The position numbers and the translations under genes were made by a program. Below, in pieces: positions 21,481 through 45,408 of a stretch of DNA of 64,000 nucleotides (its first letter is position 1; every line of letters begins with the position of its first letter). Source of the stretch: Sinohyriopsis cumingii (Eukaryota > Mollusca > Bivalvia > Unionida > Unionidae); contig CM068824.1 of NCBI GenBank assembly GCA_028554795.2, forward strand, positions 163,860,130 through 163,924,129. The letters are read 5' to 3'. Under the pieces are notes generated by a model, which searched no databases, had not been told where the DNA came from, and was given only the letters and a program-made list of their open reading frames with translations.

Positions 21481-21484
21481 TATA

Positions 21485-24400
21485 TATATATAGTCATGGA
21501 TGTAATATACGTAGCGATGGATGTCATATATACGTAGCGATGGATGTCATATATACGTAGTGATGGATGTCATATATACATAGTGATGGATGTCATATAT
21601 ATGTAGTGATGGATGTCATATATACGTAGTGATGGATGTCATATATACGTAGTGATGGATGTCATATATATGTAGTGATGGATGTCATATATACGTAGTG
21701 ATGGATGTCATATATATGTAGTGATGGATGTCATATATACGTAGTGATGGATGTCATATATATGTAGCGATGGATGTCATATATACGTAGCGATGGATGT
21801 CATATATACGTAGTGATGGATGTCATATATACGTAGTGATGGATGTCATATATACGTAGTGATGGATGTCATATATACGTAATGATGGATGTCATATATA
21901 TGTAGTGATGGATGTCATATATACGTAGCGATGGATGTCATATATCCGTAGTGATGGATGTCATATATACGTAGCGATGGATGTCATATATACGTAGTGA
22001 TAGATGTCATATATACGCAGTGATGGATGTCATATATACGTAGTGATGGATGTCATATATATGTAGTGATGGATGTCATATATCCGTAGTGATGGATGTC
22101 ATATATACGTAGTGATAGATGTCATATATACGCAGTGATGGATGTTATATATACGTAGTGATGGATGTCATATATATGTAGTGATGGATGTCATATATAC
22201 GTAGTGATGGATGTAATAGACGTAGTGATAGATCAAATATAGTAGTGATAGATGTAATATCCGTAGTGATGGATGTCATATATATGCAGTGATGGATGTC
22301 ATATATACGTAGTGATGGGTGTCATATATATGTAGTGATGGATGTCATATATCCGTAGTGATGGGTGTAATAGACGTAGTGATAGATCAAATATAGTAGT
22401 GATAGATGTAATATCCGTAGTGATAGATGTCATATATATGTAGTGATAGATGTCATATATACGTAGTGACGGATGTCATATATACGTAGTGATGGATGTC
22501 ATATATATGTAGTGATGGATGTCATATATACGTAGTGATGGATGTCATATATACGTAGTGATGGATGTCATATATATGTAGTGATGGATGTCATATATCC
22601 GTAGTGATGGATGTCATATATACGTAGTGATGGATGTCATATATACGTAGTGATGGATGTCATATATACGTAGCGATGGATGTCATATATACGCAGTGAT
22701 GGATGTCATATATACGTAGTGATGGATGTCATATATATGTAGTGATGGATGTCATATATACGTAGTGATGGATGTCATATATATGTAGTGATGGATGTCA
22801 TATACACGTAGTGATGGATGTCATATATATGTAGTGATGGATGTCATATATACGTAGTGATGGATGTCATATATACGTAGTGATGGGTGTCATATATATG
22901 TAGTGATGGATGTCATATATACGTAGTGATGGATGTCATATATACGTAGTGATGGATGTCATATATACGTAGTGATGGATGTCATATATATGTAGTGATG
23001 GATGTCATATATCCGTAGTGATGGATGTCATATATATGTAGTGATGGATGTCATATATCCGTAGTGATGGATGTAATAGACGTAGTGATAGATCAAATAT
23101 AGTAGTGATAGATGTAATATCCTTAGTGATGGATGTCATATATATGCAGTGATGGATGTCATATATACGTAGTGATGGGTGTCATATATATGTAGTGATG
23201 GATGTCATATATCCGTAGTGATGGGTGTAATAGACGTAGTGATAGATCAAATATAGTAGTGATAGATGTCATATATATGTAGTGATAGATGTCATATATA
23301 CGTAGTGACGGATTTCATATATACGTAGTGATGGATGTCATATATATGTAGTGATGGATGTCATATATATGTAGTGATGGATGTCATATATACGTAGTGA
23401 TGGATGTCATATATATGTAGTGATGGATGTCATATATCCGTAGTGATGGATGTCATATATACGTAGTGATGGATGTCATATATACGTAGTGATGGATGTC
23501 ATATATATGTAGTGATGGATGTCATATATACGTAGTGATGGATGTCATATATACGTAGTGATGGATGTCATATATACGTAGCGATGGATGTCATATATAC
23601 GCAGTGATGGATGTCATATATACGTAGTGATGGATGTCATATATATGTAGTGATGGATGTCATATACACGTAGTGATGGATGTCATATATATGTAGTGAT
23701 GGATGTCATATATACGTAGTGATGGATGTCATATATACGTAGTGATGGATGTCATATATACGTAGTGATGGATGTCATATATCCGTAGTGATGGATGTCA
23801 TATATATGTAGTGATGGATGTCATATATCCGTAGTGATGGATGTAATAGACGTAGTGATAGATCAAATATAGTAGTGATAGATGTAATATCCGTAGTGAT
23901 GGATGTCATATATATGTAGTGATGGATGTCATATATATGTAGTGATGGATGTAATAGACGTAGTGATAGATCAAATATAGTAGTGATAGATGTAATATCC
24001 GTAGTGATGGATGTCATATATAGTAGTGATGGATGTCATATATCCGTAGTGATAGATGTAATATCCGTAGTGATGGATGTAATAGACGTAGTGATGGATG
24101 TCATATATATGTAGTGATGGATGTCATATATATGTAGTGATGGATGTCATATATACGTAGTGATGGATGTCATATATACGTAGTGATGGATGTCATATAT
24201 ATGTAGTGATGGATGTCATATATACGTAGCGATGGATGTCATATATACGTAGTGATGGATGTCATATATACGTAGCGATGGATGTCATATATACGTAGTG
24301 ATGGATGTCATATATACGTAGTGATGGATGTCATATATATGTAGTGATGGATGTCATACATACGTAGCGATGGATGTCATATATACGTAGTGATGGATGT

Positions 24401-24530
24401 CATATATATGTAGTGATGGATGTCATATATACGTAGTGATGGATGTCATATATATGTAGTGATGGATGTCATATATCCGTAGTGATGGATGTAATAGAGG
24501 TAGTGATAGATCAAATATACGTAGCATAGC
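21485..24530. repeat. 23-bp satellite array with higher-order structure
   Basis: About 130 units of TAGTGATGGATGTCATATATACG. A variant block (GTAATAGACG, GATAGATCAAATATAG, GATGTAATATCCG) recurs at about 22,205, 22,365, 23,065, 23,225, 23,845, 23,945 and 24,490. The spacing of about 780-860 bp between corresponding blocks shows that long segments were duplicated as a unit. Open frames here are artefacts of the repeat. Confidence 0.95.
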
Positions 24531-30091: not shown

Positions 30092-30502
30092 GTATTACTG
30101 TTACTTTTTAATATGAGTTTTGCTGGCTGGGACTGGTTGATAATGAAAGTAAGAGTTTAGTAAGAAGAATATTTTTAGAGCTCATATCAGTTGTAAGAGC
30201 GACACTGTTTTAATGATGGAATTTCGTTCCTTTTACAGATTTGAGATTGGAAAACTCTTTGCTGAAAATAGCACCTGACATTGTGGTTCAGAATTGAAAG
30301 CACATGTTTCAAATACACGCAGATCCGGAAAATGTCGAGGCTCATGTGGTTTTCTCTACAAATAAGGTGTCATTAAGGATATCTCAATACTAATAAACAG
30401 ACGTTTCATCATGAGCGTTCAGAAATTCAAAGTTACTGAATTGTTAATATCATGTCGTTTGCCTAGGTTTAATATGGAAAATAAATTGGTATAGTGAGTA
30501 TT

Positions 30503-31048
30503 TAAACAACATAATACCCAACACAACGTATTACTGTTACTTTTTAACAGCATCATACCCTACACAACGTATTACTTACTGATGCTTTCTAACAATGTCA
30601 TACGCCACATGAGTTATTACTGTTGCTTCTTTTAACAATGTCATACTCAACACGAGGTATTACTGTTGCTTTTCAACAACGTCATACCAAACACGAGGTA
30701 TTACTGTTGCTTTTCAACAACGTCATACCAAACACGAGGTACTACTGTTGCTTTTCAACAAAGTCATACCAAACACGAGGTATTACTGTTGCTTTTCAAC
30801 AAAGTCATACAAAACACGAGATATTAATGCTGTTTTTGTAGCAACATCATACCCAACACGAGGTATTAGTGTGGCTTTTTAAGAACGTTATGCCCCACAC
30901 GAAGTATTACTGTTGCTTTCTAGCAATGTCATACCCCACATGAAGTATTACTGTTCTTTTTAACAACGTCATACCCTACACGAGATATTAATGTTGTTTT
31001 TTAACGTCATATCCTACAGACGGCAATACTATTGCTTTTTAACAATGT
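30503..31048. repeat. 41-bp minisatellite built from exon 6 end and 5' splice site (left part)
   Basis: About 13 units of the type CAACAATGTCATACCCCACA, CGAG, GTATTACTGTTGCTTTT. Each unit corresponds to exon 6 from 30,067 to 30,091 followed by the start of intron 6. Several copies keep the AG-GTATTA splice donor. The array is cut by a LINE at 31,049. Confidence 0.9.
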
Positions 31049-32180
31049 AATAATAATAATAATGAGGACTTTGTATAGCGCCTAATCTTTAGAAGCTCTA
31101 AGCGCTTTACAACATTAGACAACACCTATAATATAAAAAACATATAATGATATGATTACAAAAACAAACACCATGAAATAATCATAAAAAAAAAAAAACA
31201 ATGCCAAGAATATGTAAGGTAGGAAACATTATTAGGTCTTTAAGTTTGTTCTTGCAGTCGAAATAAGTGAGTTTTGAGAGCACTCTTGAATTGGATCATT
31301 GTGTCTTTGTGTCTAAGTTCAGTGGGCAATTCATTCCACGCTGCTGGGTCCTGGTATGCAAAATAACGCTGTCCATATGACTTTGTTCTCATAGTGGGAA
31401 TAATGAGTATACGATTGTCAGAAGAGGAGCGTAAGTATCTTGCTGGTGTGTACACACGGGTGAGGTCGGATAGGTATGTTGGACTAGAGTCCGACAGTGA
31501 AATGTAGCACAGAGAACAAATTTTGTGTTTGATTTTGGATTGAATGGATAGCCAGTGTAGGGTACAGAGCAGTGTGGAGGTGTGCTCTGATCGTGATACT
31601 GTAAGTATGATCCGAGCAGCTGTGTTTTGAATTTTTTGAAGTTTCTGGAGCAGATATTGAGATGAACTAGACAGAATTGAGTTACAATAGTCCAGTCTTG
31701 AAAGTACTAATGAACACACACAAGTGTTTTAGTGGCATCAACTGAAAGATATTTGCGAATGGAGCTGATGCGTTTCAGCTCAAGATATGCAACCTTGCAT
31801 ATGTTCATGACATGTTGGTGCAATGTGAGAGTACTGTCCAGAGTAACACCTATGTTTTATACTGATTGTGTGAATTTAATGTTGGTGTTGCTGATATTTA
31901 TTGTTTGAGGTAAAGGATGTGAATGAGAAAGTCTTTGTGTTGTGATCAGAATGGCCTCAGTTTTATCATCATTCATCTGCAGCTTGTTACATGTCATCCA
32001 TGATTTCACATCAGAAATGCACCTCTCTACACCTTGGATGGTAGCATTAACTTCAGTTAGATGGCTAGATTTGTATATTTGGGTGTCATCAGCGTACAAT
32101 TGGTGAGACACTGGATGATGGTCTATGACACTTGAAAGCGACTGAGCGTACAGAATGAAGAGAACAGGTCTTTTTTTGGT
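31049..32180 (-). mobile_element. 5'-truncated LINE (CR1/L2-like), with reverse transcriptase remnants
   Basis: On the minus strand, a frame near 32,200-31,857 has QLYADDTQIYKSS, the catalytic YADD box. Another, 31,719-31,240, has LVLSRLDYCNSILS, LHWLSIQSKIKHK and PAAWNELPTELRH, the typical thumb and C-terminal end of CR1/L2/Crack-type reverse transcriptases. The 3' end carries GTAAAGCGCTTAGAGC and GGCGCTATACAAAG, then an ATT-type microsatellite tail, as in L2-like LINEs. Endonuclease and 5' parts are absent. It interrupts the 41-bp array. Confidence 0.85.
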
Positions 32181-32370
32181 ATAATACCCTATACTAGGCA
32201 TTACTGTTGATTTTTAACAATGTCATACCCCACACGAAGTATTACTATTCTTTTTAAGAACGTCATACCCTACACGAGGTATTAATGTTGCTTTGTAACA
32301 ATGTCATACCCAACACAAGGCATTACTGTTGCTTTAAAGCAACGTCATACCCTACAAAAAGAATTAGTAT
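32181..32370. repeat. 41-bp minisatellite, right part
   Basis: Four to five further units of the exon 6-like array (AACAATGTCATACCCCACAC, GAAGTATTACTATT) resume directly after the LINE. Confidence 0.9.
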
Positions 32371-40223: not shown

Positions 40224-40855
40224 AGTAGTAATATAGGACACTTGAGCCTGCGGGACACTTTGGTCTCAAATGAGAATTGACATGGGAGAGACACTTGCAC
40301 CTCAAACGAGAAATTAACATAACTCTTTGAGGTGTTTATGGGGTCAAAAGGTGACAGTGTTACAAGTGGCTGTCCTCGGTTGGTCCGTGACTTAGTAACA
40401 GTGTTTGAGTTGACCTCAATATGCGCAACTCTGTGTTAGTATGGGAAATTCTATATTAAATGTGTCCATGCCAGGGAATCTATGGCCTTAAAATGTTGAT
40501 GGGTCAAATGGATTTATAGGGCAGAAGGGTTTATGGGGTAGAAACGTTTATGGGGTGGATTGGTTTGTGGGACGGAAGGGTTTATTGGGTCAAAGGAAAA
40601 GGCTAGTTGTAACAGATTAAGTTTTGAGTCGAAAACAAACAAAACCTCCCTCACACAATCCACACTGCATGTGTGTAGTCAGCTCAAGTCAACCATTAGA
40701 AGAACGTAGGGCGGGCTTTAAATCAAACTACACCTATTTTTTTCTTAGCACAATCTGAAGACTAGTGTCCTTTCTCCTGTTAATGACAACTGGTATCTCG
40801 ACCTCTCTCTTTTATCCTGTGTTTCTCAGGCATTTAGGATAATGTGTTTTGGGTT
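40224..40855 (+). mobile_element. Left end of a second, truncated Polinton related to Polinton-1
   Basis: AGTAGTAATATAGGACAC at 40,224 resembles the Polinton-1 tip AGTAGTGAATGGGGATAC. ACAAGTGGCTGTCCTC and GAGTTGACCTCAATA near 40,362-40,425 align with GCAAGTGGCTGACCTG and GGGTTGACCTGAATA in its left terminal repeat. Near 40,745-40,848 the minus strand aligns with the second knuckle region of the zinc-knuckle gene, now without a usable frame. Most of the element is gone. Confidence 0.68.
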
Positions 40856-40960
40856 TGGATGGTATAGGTGGTGTTTTGCATAGTATTTTAGGAGATTTCA
40901 TCTCCTTCTTTTAAACTTTACACTAACACAAGGCGTTTTGGATAGTGTGTATGGGGGTAT
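40856..40960. repeat. ~150-bp repeat array, left part
   Basis: Partial unit with GGATGGTATAGGTGGTGTTT, ACACAAGGCGTTTTGGATAG and GTGTGTATGG. It is the same family as 43,361-43,985, separated by the CACTG transposon. Confidence 0.75.
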
Positions 40961-41220
40961 CACTGGTCAACAGTGAAATCATTACTGACTTGAAAAGGCC
41001 CTAATCTGTAGTATTTTGGTGTGCCGAACACGAATATAACCGTGAAAAATTTGTATTGGCTCTCGTTTTGAAGATATTCATATACCTCATTTTCTATGTT
41101 TCACTGTGTAAATTTCTCCAGTAGGACTGCAGCAACATCCGGAATAATGATGTAACATTGCATAATACCATCATGCTCACATCATCCACAGTTGATTGCA
41201 TCATTTTCTGATGCAATGCA

Positions 41221-41340
41221 ATACTAATGCCATGCGGCTGCTGAAGTAAGTTGACGTCAGCAGTGTACTATACATGTGTAGGCCTATTATACTAATGCCA
41301 GGCGGCTGCTGAAGCTGACGTAAGCAGTGTACTATATAAA
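41221..41340 (+). promoter_or_regulatory. Putative transposase promoter: direct repeat and TATA box
   Basis: A ~50-bp unit (ATACTAATGCCATGCGGCTG...GTACTATA) at 41,221-41,272 is repeated at 41,289-41,336. The second copy ends in TATATAAA (41,333-41,340), about 115 bp before the ATG. Confidence 0.5.
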
Positions 41341-41454
41341 GCCCAATCAGATAGGTTCAGCATTTAAAATATTTTAGACGTTGTGCGAGACAGTTCAAGC
41401 TACTGTTACATAAAACTTATTATTTTATCCATTTACGTACAATAAAGAACAGTA

Positions 41455-43143
41455 ATGCCTCGAAAGTGTGTTAATACCGCGGACAATTTTTGCTATATTT
41501 GTGGGGAAGTGACATTTGCCAACCAGAAGAAAAGTATCAATTCTCAAGTGAAGAAGGCATATCATCTTTACTTCGGATGCAAGGTTGGTGACCAAGACAA
41601 GCCTTGGGCTCCGCATATATGCTGTGCTACATGTACAACACAGCTTTCACAGTGGTTGAATTGCAAAAGGTCATCAATGCCGTTTGCAGTCCCAATGGTG
41701 TGGAGAGAGCCAAGCAACCACCTAAATGACTGTTACTTCTGCTTGGTTCCTCCTCTTTCCGGCGGAATAACGAAGCGAAAGAAGTCGAGAATAGTCTACC
41801 CAAACATTCCGTCTGCATTGAGACCAGTTCCACATGGTGAGGGACTTCCTATTCCAGAACCTCCAGCAGAATATTCTCTTGATTCATCTGACGAAGACAA
41901 AGGTGAGTCGACCTGTTCTTCTCCTGGTCCATCAGCATGCAGTGATCCAGATTTTCACTGTGGTGCATCATCAACCCCACACAGAATAACACAGGAAGAA
42001 CTAAATGACCTGATTCGTGATTTGGACTTATCAAAGAACAAGGCAGAATTGCTAGGATCAAGACTCCAACAATGGAATCTTCTAGAAGAAGATGTCACAA
42101 TTACTGCATATCGAAAGCGCCACCAGCAATTGGAGCCTTTCTTCAGAAAGGAAAGTAATCTGATATTCTGTTCCGATATTGAGGGCCTCATGAATGCTTT
42201 AAAAATCACTCATGACCCACAAGAATGGAGACTATTTGTGGACTCTTCGAAACTGAGTCTCAAGGCTGTGCTTTTGCACAATGGAAACATTCTTCCATCT
42301 ATTCCAGTAGCGTATGCTGTCCACATGAAAGAGACATACGATAACTTAAGGCAGCTACTGAATTCCATTGAGTATAACAAGTACAGCTGGCACCTCTGTG
42401 GTGATTTGAAGGTAGTTGCCCTTTTAATGGGACTGCAGCAAGGATATACAAAATACATGTGTTTCTTATGCGAGTGGGATAGCCGAGCAAGGGAAATGCA
42501 CTACATGAGGAAAGAATGGACTCACAGGCAGAATGTAGCCATTGGAGAGAAGAATATCCAACACCCAGCTCTGGTTGAGGCTCAGAAAATCTTGCTACCA
42601 CCCCTTCACATCAAACTAGGTTTGATGAAGAACTTCGTGAAAGCCATTGACCGGACTTTGCCAGCATTCCGATACCTGCATGAAAAATTCCCTCGACTCA
42701 GCGAAGCAAAGATTAAAGAGGGAGTTTTTGTGGGTCCTCAGATTCGAGAGCTTTTCAAAGATGACCGGTTCAACAACTTGCTGGAAGGTGACGCGAAACA
42801 AGCATGGGATGCTTTTCGCCTAGTTTCTACAAACTTCCTCGGAAATGTTAGGGCAGAAAACTATAAGGAACTAGTAGAAGACATGTTGATGAAGTATAAG
42901 AAACTTGGCTGCAATATGTCTCTAAAGATTCACTTCCTTCATTCCCATTTGGATTTCTTTCCTAGCAACTGTGGTATTGTTAGTGATGAACACGGCGAAC
43001 GTTTTCATCAAGATATCGCAACAATGGAACAAAGATACCAGGGAAAATGGTCCATTACAATGCTGGCTGACTACTGCTGGACACTCCTCAGAGATGCTCC
43101 CGAACAGCTGTACAAGAGACAGGCGAAGAAATCTAAGATGTAG
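41455..43143 (+). CDS. Intact 562-residue transposase-like protein
   Basis: A single uninterrupted exon. The N-terminal zinc-binding region has Cys13, Cys16, Cys42, His54, Cys57 and Cys60, plus a Cys93-x2-Cys96 pair. A Pro/Ser/acidic linker spans about 120-165. The core has Asp263 (LFVDSSKLSLKA), Asp317 (HLCGDLKVVALL), a Cys336-x2-Cys339 pair and His349 in an insertion, PPLHIKLGLMKN (about 382-393), and Glu512/Glu515 in DEHGERFHQDI. This fits an RNase H-fold DDE transposase with a C-x2-C...H insertion. The catalytic triad is my inference. The C terminus is Lys-rich. I recall similar uncharacterised multi-copy proteins in other invertebrates but no name. No stop or frameshift is visible, unlike every other element here. 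Confidence 0.75.
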   Translation: MPRKCVNTADNFCYICGEVTFANQKKSINSQVKKAYHLYFGCKVGDQDKPWAPHICCATCTTQLSQWLNCKRSSMPFAVPMVWREPSNHLNDCYFCLVPPLSGGITKRKKSRIVYPNIPSALRPVPHGEGLPIPEPPAEYSLDSSDEDKGESTCSSPGPSACSDPDFHCGASSTPHRITQEELNDLIRDLDLSKNKAELLGSRLQQWNLLEEDVTITAYRKRHQQLEPFFRKESNLIFCSDIEGLMNALKITHDPQEWRLFVDSSKLSLKAVLLHNGNILPSIPVAYAVHMKETYDNLRQLLNSIEYNKYSWHLCGDLKVVALLMGLQQGYTKYMCFLCEWDSRAREMHYMRKEWTHRQNVAIGEKNIQHPALVEAQKILLPPLHIKLGLMKNFVKAIDRTLPAFRYLHEKFPRLSEAKIKEGVFVGPQIRELFKDDRFNNLLEGDAKQAWDAFRLVSTNFLGNVRAENYKELVEDMLMKYKKLGCNMSLKIHFLHSHLDFFPSNCGIVSDEHGERFHQDIATMEQRYQGKWSITMLADYCWTLLRDAPEQLYKRQAKKSKM

Positions 43144-43360
43144 TCAATGACTTGATTTTTTATAGGTAGGCTATTACAGTTGACCTTTTACTATTGGAAT
43201 GCATTTCGTTATGTAAACATTAATTTCTTGCAGATTACAAAAAAACTAGAGCCAATTTTGCAATTTGACTGTCATATTCGTGTTCAGCACATAAAAATTG
43301 ATAAGAATTGACTAATTTTATTTCAGTAACATGACTTTTGTAAAAATTTGTTGTCCAGTG

Positions 43361-43985
43361 TATTTGATAGTACAGGTGATGTGATGGATAGTATGTTTGC
43401 GCAATTTTATCTTCTTTATTCGCACACTACCGTACCTTCTGACAGTTGGTTCGGGATTTTGGACCCTACACAAGGCGTTTGGGATAGTGTGTATAGTGTA
43501 TTGGATGGCATACGTGATGTGATTACAATATGTTTATGCAATTTGATCTCCTTTTATACAGTATCCCTATATTCTGATTGTCGGTGTGGGATTTTTGGCA
43601 CTACACAAATCATATTTGATTGTGTGTATGGTGTATTGGATAGTATAATTGGTGTGTTGGATAGTATATTTGTGCGATTTCATCTTCTTAATTTACACAA
43701 TACCCGTATCGTCTGATAGTTAGCGTGAGACTTTAGGCAATACACAAAACGTTTGGAATAGAGTGTTTGAGGTACTGGATGGTATAGGTGGTGTAATGGA
43801 TTGTATGTTTGCACGAGTTCATTTTCTTCACTTATATCACACCAGTTAAAGTTGATAGTTGGTACGGGACTTTAGGCACGACACAAGGCATTTTGTATTG
43901 TGTGTATCATGTGTTGGATGGTATAGTTGATGTGGTAGATAGTATGTGATATTTCTTTTCCTTCATTTAAACTCTATGCTAATCC
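43361..43985. repeat. ~150-bp repeat array, right part
   Basis: About four units, each with GATAGTGTGTATGGTGTATT-like sequence, TGTTTGCGCAATTT and CACTACACAAGGCG-like segments. Units differ by many substitutions. Confidence 0.85.
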
Positions 43986-45408
43986 ATTAGTGACTTTGAA
44001 CACATATTAAACGTGTATAAAAAGTATAAAATGTCTTATATCGTATATGCAAGTATAAAGATATAACATCTGTGCTACAAAGTTTACTGGCTTTATTCAA
44101 ACAACAACTGTCACACCCCTATCTCTAATCCTGTCTGCGATAATGACTTCCTCTATTTCACATTTTCTAAAGTTGAAATGTCTACGAGACAATAGTAAGT
44201 TATATGACTTTTGTTTTGAAACTTGCAGAGACTCTCCAATTTACATGTGTCAAGAGAAGAAGAAAAAACTCTATCCTGTCTTTGCCATTTTCCAAAAACA
44301 TGCACACTTGAAGCTGTACCATAAATCTTCACGTAGTTCAGACCCCCAAAGTCACTAGTTTGAAACACCTCCGCGTAATAGTGTATCTCCTCTCTCTCTC
44401 TCTCTCTGTCTATTTGAGTGTGTGTATGTCAAAATGTCTAGGTGAGAAGTATTCGTTGTCCGCTTCTAAACGCGAACCATTGATGTGACAGTTAAGTATT
44501 TAGTGAGACAAGAACAATGGTACAGTACGCATTAGATGATTGCAAATTCACACTCTAGAACTGTCTGCCCTGCAATGGTAAAAGACTAGAGCCTAGGTAT
44601 TATTTTGCCATACTTCCTATGCACAAAACAATGCGTCACTCGTTTTGAGCAATGTCCCTGGCAACGAATATTTTCTTATCGCGTTCGCTTCGAATGTACT
44701 TCAGTGCCTCTTCACACAGTGACAAAATCAGGCGTGTTTGACTGAAGTCGTTTTTCAAGAAAATAAAACTAACGCACAAACATTCGTACCATTAGTGACC
44801 CATGGAAATGTATCAGTTTTATTGTCACAGAATGTTTGGATGTTCTATTTAGTAAGACTTTTACATCGACGTTTTGAACAGAAGGGTTTTAGTCGACCAT
44901 GTCTTCATTTCACTCTTGTGATATTTTACCGAAGAAGTGGATATTTCCTTTTGATGTAATTTTCTAAGCTGAATTGTGTTTTTGAAATTTCTTAAGGAAA
45001 ATATACCATAATAAACGTAAGTGTAGTGATATTTTTAAAAGTAGGAATAACATATTTCTTCTTTCTTTCTCTATTTGTCTCTCTGTCTGCCTCTGTCCGT
45101 CGTGATGTCCATTATCTGTTTCACAATTTTAAAAGTAGGAGTAAAATACTCTCTCCGTCGTAATGTCGATTCCCTGTCTCAAATACTCAAAAACACATCC
45201 ATTAGATTCTAATAAAATAACTTCGATTACAATTATAATGGTATCCGTTCCCGTTTTAACAAAACTCTGCAAAAGACCGCGATCACTTGTCATAAGTTAG
45301 TTACGTTTGTTTTGCAATTTGTTCAAACACTTGTAACTTTAAAAAATGGTAGAACGATTTTCTTCTACAGGTAAATATAAATCTTGAGTTGAATTGTGCA
45401 TGTCAGGT
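43986..45408. other. Intergenic, no gene recognised
   Basis: A (CT)n tract lies at 44,388-44,409 and two copies of a TTTAAAAGTAGGA-type segment near 45,035 and 45,130. The short frame at 44,143-44,358 has no recognisable motif. Confidence 0.5.

Follow-up and report, generated by a model that had tools for sequence, protein, structure and literature searches.

A complete, young CACTGG-ended transposon in Sinohyriopsis cumingii, very likely a new family of Chapaev3

The window analyzed here is a stretch of 64,000 nt from Sinohyriopsis cumingii contig CM068824.1. It carries a transposon of 2,400 bp at 40961-43360, which raises the question of what kind of element this is. A sequence-only reading had been unable to name the transposase family and had suggested an undescribed superfamily. 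That view is not sustained, as the features of the element match those published for Chapaev3 (PMC4079192). Assigned by such features, the element very likely represents a new family of Chapaev3 (Chapaev, CMC/CMCT clade) in the form of a complete, probably autonomous cut-and-paste transposon.

The element is bounded by 12-bp terminal inverted repeats, CACTGGTCAACA on the left (40961-40972, forward strand) and, read inward, CACTGGACAACA on the right (43349-43360, reverse strand), both read from the sequence and identical at 11 of 12 bases. A TAT trinucleotide lies on each flank, at 40958-40960 (from the sequence and the empty-site comparison) and at 43361-43363 (read from the sequence), which confirms the inverted CACTGG termini and flanking TAT described earlier. 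Further inside, a second pair of inverted repeats of about 57 bases, absent from the earlier description, was identified by blastn of one end against the other (77% over 60 positions, E 4e-6). The left inner repeat (41013-41069, forward strand) begins at base 53 of the element, and the right one (43242-43298, reverse strand, read from 43298 to 43242) at base 63, counted from the right end. This offset of 10 bases corresponds to about one helical turn.

For the empty-site comparison, the flanks were joined with a single TAT and aligned to five stretches nearby. The array units at 43461-43600, 43601-43740 and 43731-43960 align across the junction, with a gap of one base immediately to the left of the TAT in each case. 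The stretch 40701-40870 aligns across it only with a larger gap, and the alignment of 43951-44400 stops short of it. The proposed internal empty site is thus borne out by three of the five stretches. Alignment of these array units across the junction shows that both the insertion and the 3-bp duplication are genuine. Elsewhere in the window, a 23-bp unit is repeated about 134 times across 3 kb (21482-24524). At 30501-31052 and 32184-32356, ~1.1 kb apart, lie two arrays whose 41-bp units (CATACCC..ACACGAGG.ATTA) resemble each other; they are perhaps one array split by an insertion.

The host assembly (2.9 Gb, 1138 contigs) was searched for further copies, whose completeness was judged by the CACTGG...CCAGTG ends themselves. 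By DNA, 33 candidates were scored and 34 matches obtained; 33 places were fetched and 31 of them hold complete copies. With 31 of the 34 DNA matches being complete copies that share these ends, and 51 such copies read altogether, chance is excluded. In the protein search, 77 of 9586 candidates were scored, and all 77 are full-length unbroken ORFs, nine of them already found by DNA. Twenty-one new loci from this search were read as DNA; 20 are complete and all 20 encode 562 aa, a biased sample since the protein search ranked by intact protein. One locus (L065) has an unbroken 562-codon ORF and an intact right end, without a recognizable left end. Two incomplete loci (L039 and L040) were left out of the counts, and 47 of the 77 protein matches were left out of those made at the DNA level. 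In total, 51 complete copies were read, all identical in the first 20 bases. With 33 DNA candidates and 77 of 9586 protein candidates scored, the copy numbers given are minimum values. The 68 ORFs found by the protein search alone all lie on two contigs (C1 and C2) amounting to about one-eighth of the assembly, from which several hundred intact copies are likely by extrapolation.

The copies are highly similar, with a mean distance to the consensus of 3.4 substitutions per 2,400 (range 0-11) over the 51 complete copies. Among the first 31 complete copies, 25 encode 562 aa, and 24 of those keep all nine key residues. Across these 31 copies, variants are mostly private (92, with 6 shared), indicating a star-like burst. 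The 72 distinct ORF variants of these copies (16 synonymous, 52 non-synonymous and 4 stops) are near the neutral expectation of 25/70/4%, giving no hint that copies were under selection once inserted. The element is intact and young, as had been proposed from the window, and, judged from the identity of its copies, probably spread recently. The intact ORF, together with relatives in several animals annotated as "uncharacterized" or "hypothetical", could also suggest a host gene or a domesticated transposase with coincidental termini. The lack of purifying selection among those 72 variants speaks against this explanation, which is hardly conceivable and was rejected: it is refuted by dispersed copies, 51 of which share the exact ends and 47 of which have short duplications at differing sites.

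The search for copies combining CACTGG ends with 3-bp duplications, as called for by the sequence-only reading, found identical 3-bp flanks in 47 of the 51 complete copies. The duplications are TTA (18), TAA (16), TAT and ATA (three each), TTT (two), and TGA, TTG, CTA, AAG and CCA (one each). TWA accounts for 34/47, compared with a background of 5.3% of flank 3-mers. An A precedes the duplication in 38/47 and a T follows it in 36/47, both being present at 20 of the 34 TWA sites. In the other four copies the two flanks differ (TTA/ATT, CCC/GCC, TAA/TAT and AAA/TTA). The target is TWA between A and T (A-TWA-T) as a strong preference, not a rule. The TAT reported at the window is present on both sides, but it is a minority form within the family (3/47) and not the usual one. 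One complete copy (L023, G000:C1:186909740-186912139) sits in a GC-rich site with a 4-bp GCCC on both flanks and no 3-bp duplication.

The transposase is encoded by an ORF of 562 aa (41455-43143, forward strand, ATG to TAG), uninterrupted as previously read. It is the sole long ORF of the element, the second-longest having 100 aa, and it has no intron. Upstream of the ORF, blastn identified two direct repeats of ~50 bp (41221-41272 and 41289-41336). Each contains a CRE-like motif (TGACGTCA at 41252 and TGACGTAA at 41316), and a TATA box lies at the end of the direct-repeat region (41333), all three found by pattern. Repeats, CRE-like motifs and TATA box likely constitute the transposase promoter (41221-41336, forward strand), possibly a regulated one. 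Downstream of the ORF, neither AATAAA nor ATTAAA was found; only CATAAA is present, at 43290. The protein consists of a Cys/His-rich N-terminus (~1-130), a low-confidence linker (~145-169) and a RAG1/Transib-like DDE core (~175-555).

Residue conservation was scored on an alignment of 62 members. The proposed first and second catalytic Asp, D263 (codon 42241-42243) and D317 (42403-42405), are invariant (62/62), and so are C336-x2-C339 ("C(2)C" motif, 42460-42471), L384-H385 ("LH" motif, 42604-42609) and H493-x4-H498 ("H(4)H" motif, 42931-42948), all on the forward strand. Both Glu residues of E512-x2-E515 (42988-42999, forward strand) are also invariant, which, with the insertion present, agrees with the DDE core with a C-x2-C...H insertion claimed from the window. 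The catalytic Glu is likely E515, given its resemblance to RAG1 E959-x2-E962, in which E962 is the catalytic residue. At the N-terminus, C16, C57, C60, H89, C93 and C96 are invariant in the same alignment, and C5 and C13 are conserved at 90% or more.

The structure prediction proposed as a check for an RNase H fold yielded a core like that of Transib and of RAG1, the recombinase of vertebrate antibody genes. According to the structure comparison, this predicted RNase H-like core has a zinc insertion arranged as in RAG1. As points against, RAG1 entries vary in score (14.7-19.8) and three other HzTransib entries reach only 11.5-11.9, the same level as the P element. Identity in the RAG1/Transib structure alignments is 10-15%.

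Sequence databases provided no name for the protein. In Pfam, the window protein matches no family at E values of 10 or less. A Pfam scan of the 62 members at E up to 1 matched 19 families, each by at most four members and none of them a transposase family; the best matches were zf-AD (0.0017, 2/62), RT_RNaseH_2 (0.0059, four members) and EntA_Immun (0.0082). RAG1_imp_bd was matched in 3/62 members with a best E of 0.23, below significance. Together with the zf-AD matches, this gives no more than a hint of an N-terminal Chapa zinc finger. Eight proteins, including the majority consensus, gave no Pfam transposase family, a PDB sequence search with the protein or profile gave no meaningful match, and a search of viral contig and genome contig collections with the alignment gave no relatives. 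Relatives make up at least 2005 of 8000 scored in a first protein search and at least 2392 of 6817 in a second one, started from a moth relative and aiming at a named Garfield protein. None of the 120 matches listed in the latter is named Garfield, and none of the 120 listed in either search is named Chapaev. The relatives listed occur in several animals, have no Pfam domains and, where named, are "uncharacterized" or "hypothetical", as the sequence-only reading had suggested for other invertebrates. Of the N-terminally short homologs, considered as possible traces of the intron that Merrow and Garfield carry after codon 78, two begin at residue 75 with an internal Met. In the literature searched, no paper on Chapaev with CACTGG ends, or on four conserved peptides, was found; passages of PMC3630058 and PMC12220107 name Chapaev3 in passing only (a repeat table and an expression list).

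The main rival explanation is that the element belongs to a separate, undescribed CMCT lineage, sister to Chapaev3 and alike in mechanism and target preference. The window protein without a Pfam family and the abundant, mostly unnamed relatives would fit such a lineage, as would a Chapaev3 affinity drawn from features. We know of no Pfam model for Chapaev3, so absence from Pfam is no test of this explanation. Against it, those published features of Chapaev3 that could be compared are found here, down to the A-TWA-T site, and a sister lineage appears unlikely.

The features in favor of Chapaev3 itself are the following. In all Chapaev3 elements examined, TWA duplications lie between an A and a T, as confirmed by empty sites; the group also has CAC/GTG ends, and its transposase carries C(2)C, LH and H(4)H (PMC4079192). 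In the present family, TWA predominates, with the flanking A and T as a preference where that paper says "always", CACTGG...CCAGTG ends are found in 51/51 complete copies, and all three motifs are invariant. In the CMCT clade, the region from the second D to the last E carries C(2)C and H(3-4)H, the ends are mostly CA..TG and the duplications are 2-5 bp long, Chapaev3 being placed as a sublineage of Chapaev (PMC12730594). The motif positions, ends and duplications seen here agree, and bear out the CMC-group affinity already suspected from the window. A confident match to a named superfamily had been foreseen there as removing the novelty; it was obtained by features, and size and protein length agree with those of Merrow, a direct sequence match being excepted.

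An animal EnSpm/CACTA element would likewise begin with CACTG, have a 3-bp duplication and carry both C(2)C and H(3-4)H. The TWA site bordered by A and T, however, is the signature published for Chapaev3. EnSpm transposases usually match Pfam models (Transposase_21 or similar), whereas the window protein matches none, although absence from a library is weak evidence. An EnSpm/CACTA origin is thus considered very unlikely.

The element would express its transposase from its own TATA promoter. The N-terminal Cys/His region and the core may bind a two-part end signal, made of the 12-bp terminal repeat and the inner repeat. RAG1, Transib and hAT make a nick and then cut via a hairpin step. By analogy, the transposase would nick the element end, followed by a hairpin-type second-strand cleavage and integration with a 3-bp stagger. 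The RAG1 12 and 23 signals differ by one turn, and the unequal ends of the element might reflect a similar rule, under which only unlike end pairs synapse. Resting on one family, this analogy is doubtful; the copies are nearly identical and not independent, so the end asymmetry counts as a single observation. If true across Chapaev3, the pairing of unlike ends would predate RAG and be a shared trait of the wider clade.

The element is very likely a fresh and well-preserved example of Chapaev3, not a new kind of element. It ties many Pfam-less "uncharacterized" or "hypothetical" database proteins to a known transposon group with a predicted RAG1/Transib fold, so that annotators could recognize them. 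No biochemical study of a Chapaev3 transposase was found in the part of the literature searched. Being very young and rich in intact copies, the family is a good candidate for such biochemistry, and is suited to testing whether unequal-end pairing predates V(D)J recombination.

Among known systems, EnSpm/CACTA and Mirage resemble the element in CACT-type ends, short duplications and two motifs, C(2)C and H(3-4)H (PMC12730594), and differ in that its target signature fits Chapaev3 and its protein matches no transposase model of Pfam. Transib, TransibSU, Chapaev and Chapaev3 have been joined in one superfamily, and the N-terminal Chapa zinc-finger domain of Chapaev3 is shared with RAG1 (PMC4411706). 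The predicted core is arranged as in RAG1. The target duplication of Transib is 5 bp. Unlike Transib, ProtoRAG (BbRAGL) and RAG1, the element has a 3-bp duplication (47/51) and no second ORF for a RAG2-like partner, with the low identity given above in structure alignments.

The closest likeness is to Chapaev3, in TWA flanked by A and T, in the CAC and GTG ends and in the motif set C(2)C-LH-H(4)H, the differences being the TAT of the window copy and the 13/47 copies that depart from TWA. Merrow_PM (2,451 bp, 78+484 aa, or 562 aa) and Garfield_BM (2,289 bp, 78+478 aa, or 556 aa) are near the element in size and protein length (PMC4079192). Size is no defining trait of Chapaev3, since Conan_ET, also a member, is smaller (1,865 bp, 461 aa; PMC4079192). 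An intron follows codon 78 in Merrow and Garfield, or codon 77 in one case, in contrast to the intron-free ORF of the element, and most other Chapaev3 are single-exon (PMC4079192).
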